Of a stretch of 25,664 nt of DNA, positions 2,690 through 25,557 are shown in pieces (position 1 is the first letter of the stretch; the number at the start of each line of letters is the position of its first letter). The translations under genes were made by a program, and so were the position numbers. Below the pieces are notes generated by a model that had not been told where the DNA came from, searched no databases, and saw only the letters and a program-made list of their open reading frames with translations. Location: IMG/VR virus record IMGVR_UViG_3300017971_000714, positions 1-25,664 of that record; one strand, 5' to 3'. This DNA is from a virus.

Positions 2690-3886
2690 ATGGGTAATCC
2701 TTACAGAAAATTAGCATCGAAAGCTCCCTCTCAGGAAACTAAAGAACCTCGTCGTCTCTCCGTTCGTCCCCGTACGAAAATGGCTGACAGGCAAGACGAG
2801 TCTCTATTTGAGGGAAATGGAACTTTTAACCCACAAGGTTTTGACTACGACTCCAGCCGTAACGTGACTGCGTCCGATACGTCTCGTCGTATGTTCGACA
2901 ACCATGGCGAGATTAACGCTGTTGACAAGCGTGATGCGCTTGTTCAGGTTTCTCACCTGTTGAACGACATTACCAAGAGAAATGCTGGCCGTTTGACATT
3001 CGCGAATGCCGAATCTGCTCAGTACTCTTTGGACCAACGTCGTGAGATCTTGGCTGCTGCCCTGAAAGATCCTTCGGAGCAAGGACTTCGTGTGGTGGGT
3101 CAAGAACTGGCTCTTCCGATTAAAGCTATCCTCGATTACGAGGGCTTTGCTCGTAAGATCTATCGTGTGCGCCAGCTGGGCCAGGCCGAGCTGTTCCGTA
3201 TCCCGAAAGACATCCGTTCGGTTGCTTACATCATTGGTCAAGACGGTCAAACGCCTGAAGCCAAGATCAAAACCAAATGGATCACGCCGAATGAGCAAAA
3301 GATTACGTCTTTTCCGGCTATCGACATCATGGACATTTATCAAATGAACTTTGACGTCCTTGAGCGTGCGCAGGATACTGCTCGTCAGGAAATCGAACTT
3401 CAGGAAGACAAGCTTGCTATCGACTTGTTGGATCGACTTTCTACCGCTGTTAACACCACAACTACTTTTGCTTCGCTGGGCGTAGGTGCTTTCGAGGACG
3501 TTCGCTTCCAGGTTGAGCAACACAGGCTGTTGGTTGAACACTTCCTGATCAATCGTGCTGAGCTGTCTGACATCATCAAGAACATGTCTACCGCCGTTGA
3601 CCCTGTCACCGAGCGTGAGCTGCTCTTGGCTGGTTACATCGGTAACCTGTTGAATGCTCAGATCCTTACCGCTGCTGGTACTGGTGTTGAGGAAGTTATT
3701 CCTGCTGGAACGTTTTATGCGTGTACTGGCCCTGATTACCTCGGTGAGATGGGTGAGCGTATTTCTCTGTTCTCCGAACCTTACAACAAATATGCGCTTG
3801 GTGAGACTCGCAAGGGTTGGGCCTTCGTAGAGATGGTAGGTTTCGGTGCTCCGAACGCTCGTGCCGCTGCTAAGGGTTCTAAGTAG
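2690..3886 (+). CDS. Major capsid protein (HK97 fold)
   Basis: 398 residues, with GAGAGG upstream. The N-terminal about 40 residues are basic and extended (RRLSVRPRTKMADRQDESLF), resembling a removable delta-like region; LFE at 39-41 resembles the (L/I)-x-E site cut by T4-type prohead proteases. The central segment YRVRQLGQAELFRIPKD and the C-terminal PAGTFYACTGPDYLGEMGER plus SLFSEPYNKYALGETRKGWA resemble the P- and A-domain strands of large-phage capsid proteins. Codon use is the most optimised in the window (CGT, CTG, ATC, GTT), and an intrinsic terminator follows the stop, both expected for the most abundant virion protein. No intragenic hairpins were found. The family call is made by eye from position and sequence pattern. 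Confidence 0.85.
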   Translation: MGNPYRKLASKAPSQETKEPRRLSVRPRTKMADRQDESLFEGNGTFNPQGFDYDSSRNVTASDTSRRMFDNHGEINAVDKRDALVQVSHLLNDITKRNAGRLTFANAESAQYSLDQRREILAAALKDPSEQGLRVVGQELALPIKAILDYEGFARKIYRVRQLGQAELFRIPKDIRSVAYIIGQDGQTPEAKIKTKWITPNEQKITSFPAIDIMDIYQMNFDVLERAQDTARQEIELQEDKLAIDLLDRLSTAVNTTTTFASLGVGAFEDVRFQVEQHRLLVEHFLINRAELSDIIKNMSTAVDPVTERELLLAGYIGNLLNAQILTAAGTGVEEVIPAGTFYACTGPDYLGEMGERISLFSEPYNKYALGETRKGWAFVEMVGFGAPNARAAAKGSK

Positions 3887-3898
3887 TAGTTAGGTTTT

Positions 3899-3949
3899 AG
3901 GGCACGGCCAGGTTTCCCCCTCCTTTCCCTGGCCGTTGCCCTTTATTTT
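3899..3949 (+). terminator. Intrinsic terminator after the major capsid gene
   Basis: The left arm AGGGCACGGCCAGG (3899-3912) pairs with CCTGGCCGTTGCCCT (3928-3942), leaving one bulged T and a 15-nt pyrimidine-rich loop. TTATTTTC follows at once. This is a classic rho-independent terminator, or partial terminator, that would separate the capsid transcript from the genes downstream. Confidence 0.88.
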
Positions 3950-3953
3950 CTAA

Positions 3954-4006
3954 AAAGAGGTAAACCTTGCTTAATAATAAGCAGGAGGTCAGCGAAGGCT
4001 GGTAAT
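3954..4006 (+). promoter_or_regulatory. Structured leader of the PLMP-like gene, with possible 12-codon minicistron
   Basis: A small hairpin, TGCTTA (3968-3973) / TAAGCA (3978-3983) with loop ATAA, sits against AGGAGG (3983-3988). That Shine-Dalgarno motif is 18 bases from the ATG at 4007, too far to be the normal site; GAAGG (3994-3998) is 8 bases away and fits better. A minimal frame TTG(3967)-TAA(4005) of 12 codons, preceded by AGAGG (3956-3960), ends one base before the gene. The leader peptide is speculative; the hairpin and the two Shine-Dalgarno-like motifs are directly visible. Confidence 0.3.
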
Positions 4007-4861
4007 ATGGGTAAAGATAATAATATTCCTGTATTAGATTCTAACAATAAGTTTTTATCTTACACAAATCCAGCTAAATCGCGTATACTAATTAAAAATG
4101 GCAGAGCCAAAGTGTTCTGTCGCGACCCCTTTATTCTACAATTAAAGGGAGAAGTTGGAGATGATGATATGGCAATTCCGAAACAACAAGAGAGTCGACG
4201 AAGCAAACTTATTGTAAACTTTTCTAAATATTTTCAAGAGAATGAAGAGGTGTTCGTACAGAACATGCTCAACTCTCAGATTTCTATGTCTTTTAAAGGC
4301 ATGTCTGGTGAAGAGTACCACGTAGTTATTCCTAAAACGAGGCGTCCTTATAACCTTACTATGGATGTTCCTGTTGAAATTATTAAAACGAGTCCCGACT
4401 TTAGAAAACTCGTGACTCGCTCTCCTCAAGCTCTTAGACCTCTTACTGAAGACGAATATATGGAATATTATGATCGTCTGTCTGAGCGAAATAGCACAAC
4501 TATTGATGAGGAAATCGGAAAAGCTCTTAACTTGAAGAGCAGGCTCCAGAACAAGCAACAGATGCCCTCTGAGCGTCTTCAGCGAAAAGCCAACCAGGAA
4601 CTGGAAGAGGCTATGGAAGAGGCTGAGAAAGCTCCTGAGATTAATCCTACGGTTGTTGGTCTCTGCGTTAAGGCTGGCAAAGATCAAGGTCCTATGCGAA
4701 TTAAGGCTGGAGACTTTGTGGAAGAGCTTGAAATGCTCGAAAAAGAACTTTCCGTTGAAGACTGGGAATATATTTCTTCTAAAGGCGTTTACAAGAGTGT
4801 TAAAAACTTTGCTAACAAAATGCTTGAATCTCTGCTAGATGAAGAAGAAGACGATCTCTAG
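4007..4861 (+). CDS. PLMP/RRXRR-like N-terminal domain protein of the head region, no nuclease domain
   Basis: 284 residues. Residues 7-46 read IPVLDSNNKFLSYTNPAKSR then ILIKNGRAKVFCRDPFILQL. They match the layout of the PLMP (Pfam RRXRR) module at the N-terminus of IscB-type proteins: V-LD-n-nkpL-p-tPArAR-Ll--GkA-V-rr-PF-i-L. The RuvC and HNH parts of IscB are absent. The rest is an acidic, mostly helical protein (ELEEAMEEAEKAPE; C-terminus LLDEEEDDL), with a beta-type segment at 85-125. An internal ATG at 4169 (residue 55) has GGAG 8 bases upstream and could give a product lacking the PLMP-like part. It sits between the capsid terminator and a beta-rich structural gene, so a virion or assembly role is likely. 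The domain call is by motif recognition; function is unknown. Confidence 0.6.
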   Translation: MGKDNNIPVLDSNNKFLSYTNPAKSRILIKNGRAKVFCRDPFILQLKGEVGDDDMAIPKQQESRRSKLIVNFSKYFQENEEVFVQNMLNSQISMSFKGMSGEEYHVVIPKTRRPYNLTMDVPVEIIKTSPDFRKLVTRSPQALRPLTEDEYMEYYDRLSERNSTTIDEEIGKALNLKSRLQNKQQMPSERLQRKANQELEEAMEEAEKAPEINPTVVGLCVKAGKDQGPMRIKAGDFVEELEMLEKELSVEDWEYISSKGVYKSVKNFANKMLESLLDEEEDDL

Positions 4862-4878
4862 AACTTAATTCTTCAAAT

Positions 4879-4908
4879 TTAACTTTCCTAATATAAATCT
4901 GATAAAAT
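4879..4908 (+). promoter_or_regulatory. Weak promoter candidate
   Basis: The 87-bp gap before the next gene holds TTAACT (4879-4884) and TAAAAT (4903-4908) separated by 18 bases. Between them lies TATAAATC (4893-4900), close to the T4-type late promoter TATAAATA. Either reading is weak; the gap is AT-rich throughout. Confidence 0.22.
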
Positions 4909-4948
4909 AAGATAACGGGATAGATCTAACTTTTTAAAGGAGTAAGAT

Positions 4949-5593
4949 ATGGGTCAATATAGACAAATTACAAAAACTCTTTCTATAGCTGCTGCAGCCA
5001 CTGAAAGACTCTGGGATGCTCCCTCAAGTATGCCTTTCAGGAATGTTTCTATTTCTGTTAAGTCAACTCAACCTGTTTTAGTAGATGATCTTACGTATCA
5101 AGTTTTTTTGGGTGGAAGATGGAATGGTACTCCATTTGCTTCTGCGTCTACTCATATAGGTGGGCAGTCTCAGGGCGCAGCTGCTTCAATGACTGTAGTT
5201 ACTGGAGCAATTACACAATACGCTGACGCTGGTGATGCCACCCACGTCATCGTTACTTCAGCAGGTCACGGTCTCTCCGATGGAGACACCGTGACTATTA
5301 CAGGATCGACAAACTACAACGGAACGTTTGTAGTTTCGTCGTCTGCTACGAATACTTTTGAGATTGTTGATACGTGGGTCGTTGACGATGCTGCTGGTAC
5401 TTGGACTTTTCATGGAGATGTTGCTGAATTGATTTTTGAAGATGCTTCAACACATCCTGGAAATTCACCGAGTTCTCCCTCAACTCATCATACTGGAGGT
5501 TATCCTGTAGTTGTTGAGTTTGTAAACAGTACTGCTAATGACTTAGAGCTATTAGTAACCTTTGTAAGTGAAACTGTAGGAACAAACGTTTAA
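4949..5593 (+). CDS. Beta-rich structural protein with an inserted FCCH-like module
   Basis: 214 residues with a good ribosome site (AAAGGAG) before the ATG. The outer parts (residues 1-85 and 155-214) form one beta-type protein: LTYQVFLGGRWNGTPF at the start, then YPVVVEFVNSTANDLELLVT near the end. Residues about 88-152 look like a separate inserted module, VIVTSAGHGLSDGDTVTITG, then NYNGTFVV and NTFEIVDTW. This layout is common in phage fibres and other virion proteins and is sometimes matched to the FCCH domain of ubiquitin-activating E1. The insert is visibly more GC-rich than its flanks and carries two hairpins, which supports a later insertion. A head or neck decoration role is inferred from position. 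Confidence 0.55.
   Translation: MGQYRQITKTLSIAAAATERLWDAPSSMPFRNVSISVKSTQPVLVDDLTYQVFLGGRWNGTPFASASTHIGGQSQGAAASMTVVTGAITQYADAGDATHVIVTSAGHGLSDGDTVTITGSTNYNGTFVVSSSATNTFEIVDTWVVDDAAGTWTFHGDVAELIFEDASTHPGNSPSSPSTHHTGGYPVVVEFVNSTANDLELLVTFVSETVGTNV
5265..5295. repeat. Intragenic hairpin
   Basis: GTCACGGT (5265-5272) pairs with ACCGTGAC (5288-5295), extended by CTC/GAG after a 2-nt bulge. It lies in the FCCH-like insert of the beta-rich protein. Confidence 0.75.
5307..5341. repeat. Intragenic hairpin, 13 bp with one bulge
   Basis: CGACAAACTACAA (5307-5319) pairs with TTGTAGTTT (5328-5336) and GTCG (5338-5341); C5337 is bulged. It is in the same insert as the preceding hairpin. Confidence 0.85.
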
Positions 5594-5616
5594 TTAGTAT
5601 TAAAGGAGGATTGTTT

Positions 5617-5949
5617 ATGCAAGAGATTATTGATATTTTTACTAACTATGGACCCTATGTGGGTCTTCCTATTGTAGTGGCTTTTATAACACAAGGTCTT
5701 AAAAAACGTATTCCGTTTTTCAAGACCTTAACTGGTAAAAGACTTATACATTTTTTGCCATTGATTTTAGGTGTTGCAGGAGGTTTTTTGCTTCCTGAGG
5801 AATCTTGGAAATCAAGTATTCTAGTCGGAGGTGGATTAGGATGCTTGAGCCTGTTCTTGTATAAAGTTGTAACTGTAAGCTTAGCTTCTAAAGCTAAGCT
5901 TGCTAAAAAGATAGTAACTGAGAGTGTATCCGATGAAGAAGTTGAATAA
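5617..5949 (+). CDS. Small three-helix membrane protein, putative holin
   Basis: 110 residues. GGAGG (5605-5609) is 7 bases from the ATG at 5617; a TTG at 5611 is in frame but too close to the site. Three hydrophobic stretches are visible: residues about 9-24 (YGPYVGLPIVVAFITQ), 43-60 (HFLPLILGVAGGFLL) and 66-87 (SSILVGGGLGCLSLFLYKVV). A basic patch and an acidic tail (SVSDEEVE) follow. Size and topology fit a class I holin, and the next two genes look like spanin-type partners. No holin family signature is diagnostic, so another phage membrane protein is possible. The end overlaps the next gene by 17 bases. Two intragenic hairpins are present. Confidence 0.55.
   Translation: MQEIIDIFTNYGPYVGLPIVVAFITQGLKKRIPFFKTLTGKRLIHFLPLILGVAGGFLLPEESWKSSILVGGGLGCLSLFLYKVVTVSLASKAKLAKKIVTESVSDEEVE
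5693..5729. repeat. Intragenic hairpin, 15 bp with one mismatch
   Basis: AAGGTCTT (5693-5700) / AAGACCTT (5722-5729), one A-C mismatch, then AAAAACG (5702-5708) / CGTTTTT (5714-5720); loop TATTC. In the holin-like gene. Confidence 0.9.
5877..5901. repeat. Intragenic hairpin, 11 bp perfect
   Basis: AAGCTTAGCTT (5877-5887) / AAGCTAAGCTT (5891-5901), loop CTA. In the holin-like gene, 32 bases before the start of the next gene. Confidence 0.92.
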
Positions 5950-6283
5950 AGCTTGGATCTTTATTAAAAAGAATTGGAAATGGATTACCGCAACGCTTGG
6001 TATTATTTCATTGATTCTTTGTCTTTATTGGGGAATTGAAGATAAACTACTTCTTGCAATTACTAAAAAGAAAATTGAGCTTTCTAAGAACCAAAAAGAG
6101 ATTGATAAATTAGAGGCTAAACTAGAAGTACTTCAGCTCAGTGAAGATAGTGTACAGGAAGAAATCGATTCTATTACTGATAGAATCGATTCTATTAAAA
6201 AGGATATTTCCAAACGCAAGGCGGAAATAAATAAATTAACTCTTCAGCAAAAAGCTGATAGGTTTAAAGATTTGGGGTATTAG
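5933..6283 (+). CDS. Single-pass membrane protein with long coiled coil, spanin-like (Rz type)
   Basis: 116 residues from ATG 5933, with GAGAG (5920-5924) 8 bases upstream; an in-frame GTG at 5924 is a less likely start. There is one transmembrane segment at residues about 15-35 (WITATLGIISLILCLYWGI) after a basic N-terminus. It is followed by a heptad-rich charged coiled coil (KKKIELSKNQKEIDKLEAKL onward) to the C-terminus. This is the layout of an inner-membrane spanin, with its N-terminus inside and its coiled coil in the periplasm. Placement between a holin-like and a signal-peptide protein supports a lysis role. A structural membrane or tail protein cannot be excluded. It contains a 12-bp perfect hairpin at 6163-6191. 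Confidence 0.5.
   Translation: MKKLNKAWIFIKKNWKWITATLGIISLILCLYWGIEDKLLLAITKKKIELSKNQKEIDKLEAKLEVLQLSEDSVQEEIDSITDRIDSIKKDISKRKAEINKLTLQQKADRFKDLGY
6163..6191. repeat. Intragenic hairpin, 12 bp perfect
   Basis: AATCGATTCTAT (6163-6174) / ATAGAATCGATT (6180-6191), loop TACTG. It encodes IDSITDRID in the coiled coil of the spanin-like gene. Confidence 0.93.
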
Positions 6284-9349: not shown

Positions 9350-9397
9350 ATGAAATTCTTTTTAGACAACAGTAATTATAAAAGAATAGCAGAAGTT
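9350..9397 (+). repeat. Direct repeat copy 1: 48-nt 5' tag
   Basis: The first 16 codons of this gene match those at 10235-10282 at 47 of 48 bases (GAC versus AAC at codon 6). Similarity stops abruptly at codon 17 in both genes. Confidence 0.95.
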
Positions 9398-10231
9398 TTG
9401 AATAAAACTTCTATGCCGTTTTTAGCTAACCCTCCTATGTCGCAGGGTGAAACTTACCAGGGTATTTTAGAATACCCTGGTTTTCACACTGCTTCTACTT
9501 TTGAGGTTGCCGCTGCCTATGCTGTAGGTAGAATACTAAATTGGTCAACTGAGGAAGATGAACAGGGTAATCATTATGTTAATGATTACCCTGTAGTCGT
9601 TAAATTGAATATGGAGGGTTTTGATCCCAAAACTGATTATGATGCTGAGGAAATGGTTAAGCCTGCTTTATATGAGAGCTTAAAACAATTTGTTGATTTA
9701 TATAATATTAATTCTGATACCCTTGATGAAGAGATAGAAGAAGCGGCTTATGAGTTTTTAGAGGATTCTTCTATGCTTGAGGGAGATTATGTTGACTGGG
9801 AAGATGCTAAGTCGCACATTAATCAAGTATTTAGCTATATGGAAGAACCTTTTGGTAATTTTATGAATTTGTCTAATTTTACTGACGAAGTTAGAAATTT
9901 TGCTAGGAATAAAGAAATATCTCAGAATGCATTGATGGAAGTTACTCAGCAGTTTAGGTATTCTGAAGATGTTGGAGAGAATAAAATAGTAGCGGTTTAT
10001 TATCTTAACCCTGTAGGCGCTTCAGCTGGTGTTGATTACGGATGGGAGGGGTTTGATATTGTATCTCAAGATGATTTTAGTTATGGCGATTTTAATTTTG
10101 CGTATGAATTAGTGTATGGAGATGGTGATGTTGATGGTCAGTATCATGGAACTACCTATCATAATTTGTTGAATGCGGCACCTGAATTAAAAGATAAACT
10201 ACCTGATCCTCCTTTTCCTTATAAAGGTTAA
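9350..10231 (+). CDS. Tagged putative head cargo with ADP-ribosyltransferase-like motifs in permuted order
   Basis: 293 residues. Residues 1-16, MKFFLDNSNYKRIAEV, match the start of the next gene almost exactly and resemble the T4 capsid-targeting sequence (MKTYQEFIAE, cut after IAE). Next come PGFHTASTFEVAAAYAVG (43-60) and YPVVVKLNMEGFDPKTDYD (80-98), the pattern of the middle and end of H-Y-E type ART domains. The usual first ART motif, YHGT, appears instead at 265-268 (QYHGTTYHNLLNAAPEL), near the C-terminus. That suggests a circular permutation. The middle region is acidic and helical. No clear Shine-Dalgarno precedes the ATG. Two perfect hairpins lie in the 5' third. The ART call is tentative; the shared tag is certain. 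Confidence 0.5.
   Translation: MKFFLDNSNYKRIAEVLNKTSMPFLANPPMSQGETYQGILEYPGFHTASTFEVAAAYAVGRILNWSTEEDEQGNHYVNDYPVVVKLNMEGFDPKTDYDAEEMVKPALYESLKQFVDLYNINSDTLDEEIEEAAYEFLEDSSMLEGDYVDWEDAKSHINQVFSYMEEPFGNFMNLSNFTDEVRNFARNKEISQNALMEVTQQFRYSEDVGENKIVAVYYLNPVGASAGVDYGWEGFDIVSQDDFSYGDFNFAYELVYGDGDVDGQYHGTTYHNLLNAAPELKDKLPDPPFPYKG
9447..9487. repeat. Intragenic hairpin, 11 + 6 bp
   Basis: ACCAGGGTATT (9456-9466) / AATACCCTGGT (9471-9481), loop TTAG, extended by GTGAAA (9447-9452) / TTTCAC (9482-9487) across a 3-nt bulge. In the ART-like gene, just before GFHTAS. Confidence 0.94.
9562..9594. repeat. Intragenic hairpin, 15 bp perfect
   Basis: ACAGGGTAATCATTA (9562-9576) / TAATGATTACCCTGT (9580-9594), loop TGT. 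One of the two longest perfect stems in the window. Confidence 0.96.
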
Positions 10232-10234
10232 CTA

Positions 10235-10282
10235 ATGAAATTCTTTTTAAACAACAGTAATTATAAAAGAATAGCAGAAGTT
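10235..10282 (+). repeat. Direct repeat copy 2: 48-nt 5' tag
   Basis: This is the second copy of the 48-nt tag (47 of 48 bases identical to 9350-9397). The sequences upstream of the two ATGs are unrelated, so only the coding tag is repeated. Confidence 0.95.
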
Positions 10283-10579
10283 GTTGATTCATTTTATTTT
10301 GATTATGTAGATCCTAATATACTAGAGCCAACTGAGCATGACCAGGATGATGACCAAATAAAATCTTTATTATTTGATTTTGAGGAGAGTAGGGGTTGGC
10401 CAGACGAGTTACCTCCAATTTCTATAACTTTTGATGAAGATGTTGACTCTTATGTAATTTTAAATGGGCATCATCGTTGGAAAGCAGCTCTTGACTTTGG
10501 AATTGATAAAGTTCCTGTTAGGGTTTTTAAGAGTGACCCAGTTTTTGTTGATTGGTATTTAAAGACTGAAGAGGAATAA
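10235..10579 (+). CDS. Tagged putative head cargo with ParB-like domain
   Basis: 114 residues; AAAGG 7 bases before the ATG. Residues 1-16, MKFFLNNSNYKRIAEV, duplicate the tag of the preceding gene. Residues about 58-98 read PPISITFDEDVDSYVILNGH then HRWKAALDFGIDKVPVRVF, the hallmark of the ParB/sulfiredoxin-fold N-terminal domain (I-nGHHR--Aa----g---vpvrv). The size is that of a lone ParB-like domain without a DNA-binding helix-turn-helix, so it is not a partition protein. Lone ParB-like domains can be nucleases, nucleotide-binding enzymes or other effectors. The tag and its position suggest a protein packed in the head and delivered to the host; this is inference. It ends at the base before the next ATG. 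Confidence 0.6.
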   Translation: MKFFLNNSNYKRIAEVVDSFYFDYVDPNILEPTEHDQDDDQIKSLLFDFEESRGWPDELPPISITFDEDVDSYVILNGHHRWKAALDFGIDKVPVRVFKSDPVFVDWYLKTEEE

Positions 10580-22710: not shown

Positions 22711-25557
22711 ATGGTTAATACTAACAGTTCAAAACTTATAGATGAAATATCTGTAGATTCTAGGTATAGAGCTGCTTTTCCTTCTTTTAAAGTGTTTATT
22801 TACGGATATGATATAAGTGGAGATGTTATTTCAGTTAGTGTTAATCAATCAGGGGGTAGCCTTGAGAGAGCACCAAGTACGTGTTCTATTACTTTAGCTA
22901 ATTATAGAGAAAAATATACATTAACTCATAAAAATATGATTATTTTAGGGTCTTGGAAGGCTGCCATAGAGGGCGGCGTTGAGGGAGAAAAGGCGGCCAA
23001 GTCTGCTTCAGATTATCTTAAGTCGTATAATCCGTCTAAATTTGGTTTTGAATACGCCAATCCTTATGCAGGACAGGCTTTTAATTCGTCGTCCGATGCT
23101 ACTTATAGTTTGTCTGGACAAGTTGCTACTTATTTAAGCGACTTGAGTCCTGAAAAGTACAATGAGCTTAAGGTTAGGCTAGCTACTTCAACAGATGAAG
23201 AAGTTAGATATTTGTTAGAGGCTGAAGGAATAACTGTTAACTCGCTAGATGATGCTGAAAGTATAGCTTCTGTTATTATAGGATCTAAAATAGATGTAGA
23301 CAACGGTAGCTTGCTAGAATTTGGGTCTAAGGACTTTGTTCTAGGAGAACTTGGAGAAGATGACTTAAACTATTCTATTAAAGATGAGGTTATTAGGTCT
23401 AAAATTCTTAATGAAGAAAACAGACAATTTATGAATCCTAAAGAGGCTAGTGAAATAGTTAGAGTAGTTAAGCAGCAGCAGGGTTTATTGTTCAATTATC
23501 CTTTTCAAGAGGGAGACTGTATTTTTAATCTTAATGACCCAGTAAGAGTAGCTTTTAGAGATCCTTTTGACCCAAGAGTGTGGTATTGGATGTTTACGGG
23601 GTTTGTAGATACTTGGACAGAAGACATGGGTCCTAATCTTGACTCAGTGCTAAACATAACTTGTACGGATGTTTCTAAAATTGCCAGGTATACTGTTTCT
23701 CAAGTAAGAACTGGACTTGTTGATGCTAATATTGAAAAGTTATTTGATGTTATTAATGACGTTGGTTCTGCTCCGGACTCCCAAATAGGTGTTCGTCTTA
23801 CTAAAGAGATTTTTTCTGGATTACGTGTTTCTGAAGTACTAGAGTTAAACTTTTTCGGAGCAGACTCTGCTTCAAAAGTTTCAGTAGCTTCTAGGTTTCC
23901 AGGTTTAGATTTTTCTGAATTAAATACTAAGTATTATAAGGGCACTCACGATAAGTCAAATACTAGTGCTGAAGGAGATCCGTCGATTGATGGTAAAGAT
24001 CCTTTAGGAATTAAAGTTTCTAATGAAGAACAGTTGATTTTGTATTTAACAAACTTAGGTTTATCTGCTGAGCAAATTGAAGAAACTATTTATAAGCAGG
24101 CTGACGTTGTTAATTCATATGATGAGATTTATTCTAAGATTAAAGGTTATTTAGGTAACGGTTTTAAAGAGACGGTTAAATCAAATTTTGGAAAAATAAA
24201 AGAAATTGGCTGGCAGGCTATGACTTCTCCAGGAGATATTCCTTTTAAGAGAAGCTCTAGCCGCTTTGGTGTTGGGTTTTACGTTTATGGTGACCCGGAC
24301 GAGTTTGACTTGAGCTTGGGAGCAATTAAGATTGATAATTTTTGGCAATGGAATGAGATCTTGCATCATAGGGTTCGTGAGTCAGACTTAGAAACTATGA
24401 AGTATAGCTCTACGGCTGTAGATGTCAAGACTCAAGTTGCGTGGTCAAACCCAGATAACTTGAACAACTCTGCATTAGCTAAGGCGTCAAATTTTAATAC
24501 TGAACAAATAGTTGATGTTATAGGAAAGGATCTTAAAAATTATCCAGTAGGGCATGGAAGAGTATTCTACTTATCCCCTGCTAGGCTATCCTCGTTTGAT
24601 GAAGAGGGTATTTTGAGTAGAGGTTTCGGTGGCGTAGGCAACTTTCATTCAGTGTTTAAAGACAGGCTTTCGATGTTGTACGATATGGCTCAAGCTATAG
24701 AGTGGCGATTTTATGCTACTCCAAAAGGTGATTTTGTTTTTGAACATCCTTTGTACGACCATGACCCGTCTGAATTTTTTAAACCTGGTTTGACGAGGTC
24801 TGGTGACTCTAATAATTCTGATCTTACGCCTTATGAAAAAATTGAAACTTATGAAAACGTATTTGCGCAGAAGTATTCTGGTGGTTATTCCGATGCTGAA
24901 GATTTAACGCAGCTTGTTTTAGAACTTAATACTGATGACCAAGATCTTATTGACTTCATGAATCCTCCGGAATTTAAATATCGTGAGCATTTTGTAGTGG
25001 GATTTGATGAGCAGCTTAGCTTTAGTAATACTAATTCTGATAAAGGTCTTTTAACGGTTTATAGAGTTAAGCCACATAATATTTATTTGTTAAAAGAGGG
25101 GGACGTTGACTCCGCTCAACAATTTGTATACGCGGTTGACAAGAGCTTGATACCTACGTTAGGCTTCAGACTAATGGACGGTGCAGTCGAAGACTTTGTA
25201 AGTACATATGAGGGAGGGCTACTTTTATCCTCTCTTAAGCTAAAGCAGATAAATTCTGAAGCTAGAAACATAAGTTTAGAAACTATTCCTAAGTTTGGAT
25301 TAATGGTAAATAGACCTTTATACTGGAGATATAGAAATTACTATGCAAACATAGTAAGCTGTTCTCACAGTATTGCGTGGAATAATAATGTAGCAACAGC
25401 TATTAACTTAAACCAGGTTAGGGCTTGGTCTGGTTTGTTAGGGCAAGATAGTGAGCCTGTTTTTAATCATTTTGGTGATCAACAGAAGAGTTTTAACTGG
25501 GCAGACATAATGTCAAGAGCTAAACATACTAAAAATAGAAAAGGCGGGGATAAGTAA
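22711..25557 (+). CDS. Large baseplate hub-like protein
   Basis: 948 residues; AGGTAGG upstream. Near the N-terminus is FPSFKVFIYGYDISGDVISV then LERAPSTCSITLAN, the opening of gpD/gp27-type hub proteins. A second hub-like block is GDCIFNLNDPVRVAFRDPFD, then VWYWMFTGFVDTWTEDMGP. The C-terminal third has YDMAQAIEWRFYATPKGDFV and a beta-rich end (NRPLYWRYRNYYANIVSCSH). Long acidic linkers (residues about 120-235 and 410-480) make it larger than T4 gp27. It probably forms the central hub that carries the spike. It ends in TAATG overlapping the next gene. No strong hairpins. Confidence 0.7.
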   Translation: MVNTNSSKLIDEISVDSRYRAAFPSFKVFIYGYDISGDVISVSVNQSGGSLERAPSTCSITLANYREKYTLTHKNMIILGSWKAAIEGGVEGEKAAKSASDYLKSYNPSKFGFEYANPYAGQAFNSSSDATYSLSGQVATYLSDLSPEKYNELKVRLATSTDEEVRYLLEAEGITVNSLDDAESIASVIIGSKIDVDNGSLLEFGSKDFVLGELGEDDLNYSIKDEVIRSKILNEENRQFMNPKEASEIVRVVKQQQGLLFNYPFQEGDCIFNLNDPVRVAFRDPFDPRVWYWMFTGFVDTWTEDMGPNLDSVLNITCTDVSKIARYTVSQVRTGLVDANIEKLFDVINDVGSAPDSQIGVRLTKEIFSGLRVSEVLELNFFGADSASKVSVASRFPGLDFSELNTKYYKGTHDKSNTSAEGDPSIDGKDPLGIKVSNEEQLILYLTNLGLSAEQIEETIYKQADVVNSYDEIYSKIKGYLGNGFKETVKSNFGKIKEIGWQAMTSPGDIPFKRSSSRFGVGFYVYGDPDEFDLSLGAIKIDNFWQWNEILHHRVRESDLETMKYSSTAVDVKTQVAWSNPDNLNNSALAKASNFNTEQIVDVIGKDLKNYPVGHGRVFYLSPARLSSFDEEGILSRGFGGVGNFHSVFKDRLSMLYDMAQAIEWRFYATPKGDFVFEHPLYDHDPSEFFKPGLTRSGDSNNSDLTPYEKIETYENVFAQKYSGGYSDAEDLTQLVLELNTDDQDLIDFMNPPEFKYREHFVVGFDEQLSFSNTNSDKGLLTVYRVKPHNIYLLKEGDVDSAQQFVYAVDKSLIPTLGFRLMDGAVEDFVSTYEGGLLLSSLKLKQINSEARNISLETIPKFGLMVNRPLYWRYRNYYANIVSCSHSIAWNNNVATAINLNQVRAWSGLLGQDSEPVFNHFGDQQKSFNWADIMSRAKHTKNRKGGDK

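Follow-up and report, generated by a model that had tools for sequence, protein, structure and literature searches.

The Gene and Its Leader

The DNA analyzed here (the window, 25,664 bases of the virus record IMGVR_UViG_3300017971_000714) has a head-tail gene order, in which an acidic residue- and lysine-rich protein, a possible decoration protein, the major capsid protein, the open reading frame (ORF) at 4007-4861, and tail genes follow one another. The ORF encodes a protein of two parts (Table 1): an N-terminal module that, by sequence profile and predicted fold, is a homologue of the PLMP domain of IscB and IsrB, and a C-terminal core of an uncharacterized phage family. A short structured RNA, the leader, directly precedes the start codon. 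The PLMP domain itself is already known; it is present in IscB and IsrB and has been lost in Cas9.

Table 1. Positions of the gene, its parts, and the neighboring features in the window
Feature	Position	Strand	Basis
Major capsid protein	2690..3886	+	phrog_2522, E=1e-56; directly upstream of ORF 4007-4861
Probable terminator of the major capsid gene: long hairpin and T-rich tract	3900..3949	+	read from the sequence
Leader RNA: P1, AGG linker, P2	3966..4002	+	fold z=-2.8; counterparts in other phages covary
AGGAGGT, Shine-Dalgarno-like	3983..3989	+	sequence; AG invariant here in 25/25 aligned leaders
Gene, 284 aa: PLMP/RRXRR-type module and phrog_17686 core	4007..4861	+	ORF, profile matches, model
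PLMP/RRXRR-type module, residues 7-54	about 4025..4168	+	PF14239 coordinates; modeled fold like that of nine IscB/IsrB structures
Shine-Dalgarno GGAG inside the gene (4157-4160) with an ATG in frame (4169-4171), where module and core meet; candidate second start	4157..4171	+	
Core, phrog_17686-like, residues 67-276	4205..4834	+	phrog_17686, E=1.1e-9; structural match to PaBG, Lu11, and Motura proteins

The Module Resembles the PLMP Domain of IscB and IsrB

An earlier note on this DNA, made from its letters, had likened several N-terminal residues of the protein to the start of IscB. Those residues are encoded by the ORF on the plus strand, and profile searches bear out the likeness. The Pfam family PF14239 (RRXRR) matches residues 7-54 with E=5.9e-8 at 33.2 bits, above the gathering score of 25; the profile positions matched, 1-48 of 174, correspond to the PLMP part of IscB. 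The same profile is matched individually by 39 of 42 aligned homologues, and the match in the window is therefore not a chance one. Among solved structures, the best relatives by sequence (phmmer against the PDB) are TbaIscB (E=5.8e-5) and then HfmIscB (E=0.028). The NCBIfam model guided_IscB reaches 31.5 bits against a whole-protein cut-off of 175 and is confined to the module stretch (residues 9-54), and no Pfam RuvC or HNH domain follows the module in the 284-residue protein, in agreement with the earlier note; the protein is therefore not assigned to the IscB/IsrB nuclease family. In addition, no HEARO/ωRNA (RF02033) was found at E<=10 in window positions 3000-6000 or at E<=1 in seven homologous loci, with a tool that does find HEARO at IscB loci.

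The AlphaFold model of the full protein, made with 42 homologues, has a pLDDT of 88.8. The modeled module comprises β-strands at residues 7-10 and 16-20, an α-helix at 22-30, and β-strands at 34-39 and 42-46, and is joined to the core by a disordered linker (residues 52-63). When the full model is compared with the PDB by Foldseek, the nine best matches are all IscB or IsrB, after which the list drops to unrelated chains; the module modeled alone (pLDDT 84) places the same nine chains on top. The module overlays on residues 2-46 of HfmIscB with a VIA-align Z of 7.6 and an rmsd of 1.2 Å over 45 residues at 38% identity, so that the module is predicted to fold like the PLMP domain of IscB. Residues 7-54 are, by profile and modeled fold, a homologue of the PLMP domain of IscB and IsrB. 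Neither of the two outcomes that the earlier note named as refuting its idea, a missing RRXRR match or a differing fold, was observed.

Distribution and Descent

Direct searches recovered four module-bearing homologues, with identities down to about 25%, including one in Virus Rctr197k (DAMO/AAA enrichment culture). With the capsid protein as bait, 80 loci (prefix L) were collected, and the 59 with at least 900 nt downstream were used for counts. The gene is present in 55 of these 59 capsid loci, in all but one or two cases with the module, and the reading frame begins no more than 400 nt from the capsid gene in 43 of the 55. In the four loci without the gene behind the capsid gene, other genes are found there or, in L045, the gene lies elsewhere in the genome (RRXRR place at 64,195, capsid gene near 116,000). 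Fifteen phage contigs of 50-212 kb have exactly one RRXRR place (PF14239) each, and the 47-kb contig of L053 has none. A short-query tblastn of the module against phages and plasmids found nothing. A family-specific pattern scan of viral contigs gave 23 loci, most of them in contigs already in the set; no other module architecture occurs among the six of the 23 that were translated, all six being the same gene. The group is a large one of mostly uncultured phages, which carry the gene once per genome, usually just after the capsid gene. The suggestion of an independent life for the module is well supported, as more than 45 divergent homologues keep it in the absence of a nuclease. Two PLMP-type modules stand in tandem before the core in L070 and L071 (6959-8572) and in L086 (8758-10065).

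The module is vertically inherited in these phages. Across 37 phages, the identity of the modules rises with that of the capsid proteins (Mantel r=0.76, p=0.001) and with that of the cores (r=0.77), and between the window and L001 the dN/dS is 0.037 for the module and 0.07 for the core. In a tree of 38 phage and 51 IscB modules, the two sets separate completely with a support of 0.977; the tree spans about 50 residues and is unrooted, with no outgroup, and the direction of descent is not readable from it. The IscB loci were found with a self-made consensus query, and HEARO RNA lies upstream in five of the five tested.

These data bear on the possibility that the module survives as a remnant from an IscB/IshB-like element inserted behind the capsid gene and fused to the core. 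The site behind the capsid gene is an insertion hot spot, as seen in L064, L073, L079, and phage G (gp28). However, the module is under strong purifying selection, is present in nearly all relatives, and is inherited together with the capsid gene. The separate phage clade and the tracking of the capsid tree show that the modules are therefore not recent IscB debris, which purifying selection, conservation, and the tree together rule out. As decay, the remnant explanation is largely refuted; as a whole, with an ancient capture as one part of it, it is very unlikely.

Several other genes have been observed at the hot spot. A dCMP-deaminase-like gene is inserted behind the capsid gene in L053 (7272-8428), where it is one of the genes between the capsid gene and a core-only gene, and in L079 (within 1 kb). 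Helix-turn-helix, zinc-finger, or homing-type genes are found behind the capsid gene in L064, L073, and L078, as well as in phage G (gp28, L004 5967-6896).

The Core Domain

Residues 67-276 match phrog_17686 over profile positions 11-221 of 225. The core is common to PaBG gp154 and Lu11 gp139, and the structural matches also include a Motura protein. Unlike the window protein, the Lu11 and PaBG proteins lack the module and are encoded beside RuvC and DNA primase genes, far from the capsid gene. The 14 virion proteins identified in PaBG do not include gp154 (PMC7412058, Table 1). This placement and the absence of gp154 from the virion proteins argue weakly against a structural role, and a virion function of the core family is not supported. 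One candidate assignment of the core, Pfam RuvX, was dismissed, as it scores 16.9 bits against a cut-off of 29.2 and appears in one of 42 members.

The earlier note had suggested that the module may serve in virion assembly, as an RNA- or nucleic-acid-binding or a protein-docking element. A role with nucleic acids is plausible, the gene being preceded by a covarying RNA leader; the assembly role has found no support, given the position and virion data for the Lu11 and PaBG proteins and the presence, in one phage, of the module-bearing gene about 50 kb from the capsid gene. A related explanation is that the module is a protein-docking or oligomerization domain for the core or a capsid partner and does not bind RNA. 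The PLMP domain of IsrB makes extensive packing contacts with RuvC and TI (PMC9581776), and the phage gene usually adjoins the capsid gene. Docking would, however, leave the conserved leader unexplained, and it sits poorly with the core-only relatives in Lu11, PaBG, and L053, with gp154 lying outside the identified virion proteins, and with the disordered linker between module and core in the model. We regard it as unlikely.

A Covarying Leader RNA at the Ribosome-Binding Site

The leader consists of a hairpin, P1, an AGG (mostly within GAGG or GGAGGT), and a second hairpin, P2, immediately upstream of the start codon. P1 of the window pairs 3966-3973 with 3978-3985, the AGG linker occupies 3986-3988, and P2 pairs 3989-3993 with 3998-4002. 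The Shine-Dalgarno-like AGGAGGT overlaps the 3' arm of P1, and P2 stands between it and the ATG at 4007. Fold z-scores are -2.8 in the window and -2.8 to -3.7 in L001, L013, and L034, and are non-significant in several other lineages.

In an alignment of 24 distinct leaders, 97.5% of cells are paired compared with 65.5 +/- 2.2 in shuffles, with leaders aligned on AAC and AGG anchors, unclear leaders omitted, and arms placed by hand, which favors pairing. Changes on both sides are seen in eight of the nine base pairs, and the covariation score is 0.81 versus 0.22 for shuffled and at most 0.21 for slid versions. Two unselected controls agree with the covariation. A hairpin-AGG-hairpin descriptor reaches a score of at least 12 in 57% of 49 leaders versus 14% of 2,804 windows drawn at random from the same contigs, and a covariance model built from eight leaders matches, at E<1e-6, only the leaders of this gene among the 80 loci. 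In whole contigs, this model finds one strong leader copy each; a second, weak copy (E=5e-4) is observed at 23139-23182 in the contig of L010 (G002). The leader also remains with those copies of the gene that lie apart from the capsid gene (L183, L056, and L066). No Rfam family matches the leader in window positions 3000-6000 or in seven homologous loci. Between the window and L001, a single genome pair, synonymous differences affect two of 25 codons within the first 26 codons (4007-4084) and 80 of 164 in the core, as would be given by an RNA element reaching into the gene. A conserved, covarying structure sits at the ribosome-binding site of this gene.

Alternatively, the module could act in trans on RNA or the ribosome, for example as an IF3-N-like factor tuning the translation of late phage mRNA, with the leader left unbound as an ordinary structured ribosome-binding site or stability element. 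IF3 N-terminal domains are the next structural neighbors of the module after IscB and IsrB, a likeness published for the PLMP domain of DtIsrB (PMC9581776), and structured 5' leaders are common. The similarity is weak, however (VIA Z about 3.7, rmsd 5.7-6.6 Å), sequence identity is negligible at about 4-8%, and the protein context differs. Moreover, the single covarying leader per contig is always at this gene, which indicates a relation in cis. Action in trans is unlikely in our estimation.

A Possible Internal Start at the Module/Core Junction

An in-frame ATG is present at the junction of module and core in 42 of 48 genes, mostly with a Shine-Dalgarno sequence before it. The median anti-Shine-Dalgarno energy is -7.4 kcal/mol at the junction ATG versus -2.9 for 265 other internal Met codons (p=2e-18), and energies of -5.5 or below are reached by 90% of junction ATGs versus 23% of the others; the Met frequency in the core is 2.9%. 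One relative, L053, has lost the module at the junction point. Tests with synonymous shuffles are mixed, many genes beating most of their own shuffles.

The conserved internal Shine-Dalgarno/ATG and the core-only gene of L053 are also what would be seen if only two separate products existed, the module part being a regulatory leader peptide, the core being made from the internal ATG, and the fusion being incidental. Dozens of divergent homologues, however, are read through in frame with no stop, and the module is a folded domain conserved at the amino-acid level. Such an arrangement is improbable.

Proposed Autogenous Control of a Two-Product Gene

The reading proposed here, tentatively and as a distinct possibility, is autogenous control of a two-product gene. 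The gene would make a long product, the IscB-PLMP-type module with the core, and the conserved internal ribosome-binding site probably yields a short one, the core alone. The likeliest target of the module is the leader in its own mRNA, where the two hairpins flank the Shine-Dalgarno sequence; binding there would limit or switch translation of the long form, and the internal start would keep the core supplied. We infer leader binding, translational repression, and the production of both proteins. In the published structure of IsrB, the PLMP domain is reported to stabilize the terminal ωRNA hairpin at its base and to touch the Shine-Dalgarno sequence, a contact for which the authors suggest expression regulation (PMC9581776) and from which autogenous control is proposed here. 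In OgeuIscB, the PLMP domain recognizes the terminal hairpins mainly in a sequence-independent manner (PMC9640706).

Several observations weigh against autogenous control. The leader sequence varies between lineages, roughly a third of the genes lack a clear two-hairpin form by the descriptor, and some lineages have a second Shine-Dalgarno-like site nearer the start codon. L053, with a core-only gene that begins at the junction position, manages without the module. The junction Shine-Dalgarno of the window is no stronger than its synonymous shuffles, and the junction signal may therefore follow in part from the amino-acid sequence. Finally, the P-L-M-P tetrapeptide is not conserved: residues 16-20 of the window protein are FLSYT, and phage modules mostly have [FVI]LSYT or FLEYT where the IscBs compared have PLxP (PLMPT, PLDPC, and PLNPV). 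The module is therefore called a PLMP-domain homologue rather than a canonical PLMP domain. In IscB, the PLMP motif touches RuvC and the ωRNA (PMC9640706); the phage protein has no RuvC for such a motif to touch.

Other Features of the Window and Related Loci

The arms of the hairpin behind the major capsid gene lie at about 3900-3912 and 3928-3941; the hairpin is not listed by the terminator scan, its loop being longer than the scan permits. Among later genes of the window, two adjacent ones (9350-10231 and 10235-10579) have a common N terminus, MKFFLxNSNYKRIAEV, and the second contains a ParB-like stretch, ILNGHHRWKAALDFGIDKVPVRVF. A free-standing HNH-endonuclease-like gene is found among the tail genes of L010 (8320-9387), with no counterpart in the window. 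In L011, an in-frame TAA (4719-4721) occurs in the capsid gene, after TGPEYYG and before MGIRVELF, and is either a sequencing error or a nonsense change.

Relation to IscB and ωRNA

The phage module shares with the PLMP domain of IscB and IsrB a profile score above the cut-off, a β-β-α-β-β fold, an N-terminal position, and RNA hairpins near a Shine-Dalgarno sequence just upstream. The phage gene differs in lacking RuvC, HNH, bridge helix, TI, and HEARO/ωRNA, and in being fused to a phage protein. Similarly, the 3' end of HEARO/ωRNA has hairpins and a Shine-Dalgarno sequence directly before an ORF with a PLMP domain, whereas the phage leader is only about 40-60 nt long and lacks both a guide and a pseudoknot core. 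That this leader and the ωRNA tail of IscB are homologous was considered and rejected: the covariance model R1 shows no enrichment before the IscB start at 70 IscB loci, and only resemblance is therefore claimed.

It is conceivable, though doubtful, that the gene and its leader are a nuclease-free, perhaps ancestral, relative of the ωRNA-IscB pair, in which the PLMP domain would bind hairpins at the ribosome-binding site of its own gene. If so, the 3' terminal hairpins of ωRNA and the phage leader would share descent, and the RNA-guided nuclease would have begun as an autoregulatory pair of protein and leader. What the PLMP domain binds alone, and whether ωRNA grew from an autoregulatory leader, can be tested directly on a domain of 54 residues and an RNA of ~45 nt.

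Neither Pfam or Rfam annotation nor the open-access papers searched were found to describe the nuclease-free architecture, its conservation at one per genome in this phage group, or the leader RNA. A broad group of phages holds a conserved, vertically inherited, nuclease-free version of the PLMP domain, preceded at its start by a short RNA that covaries, which suggests that this domain has a life of its own, in which it probably tunes the translation of its own gene.
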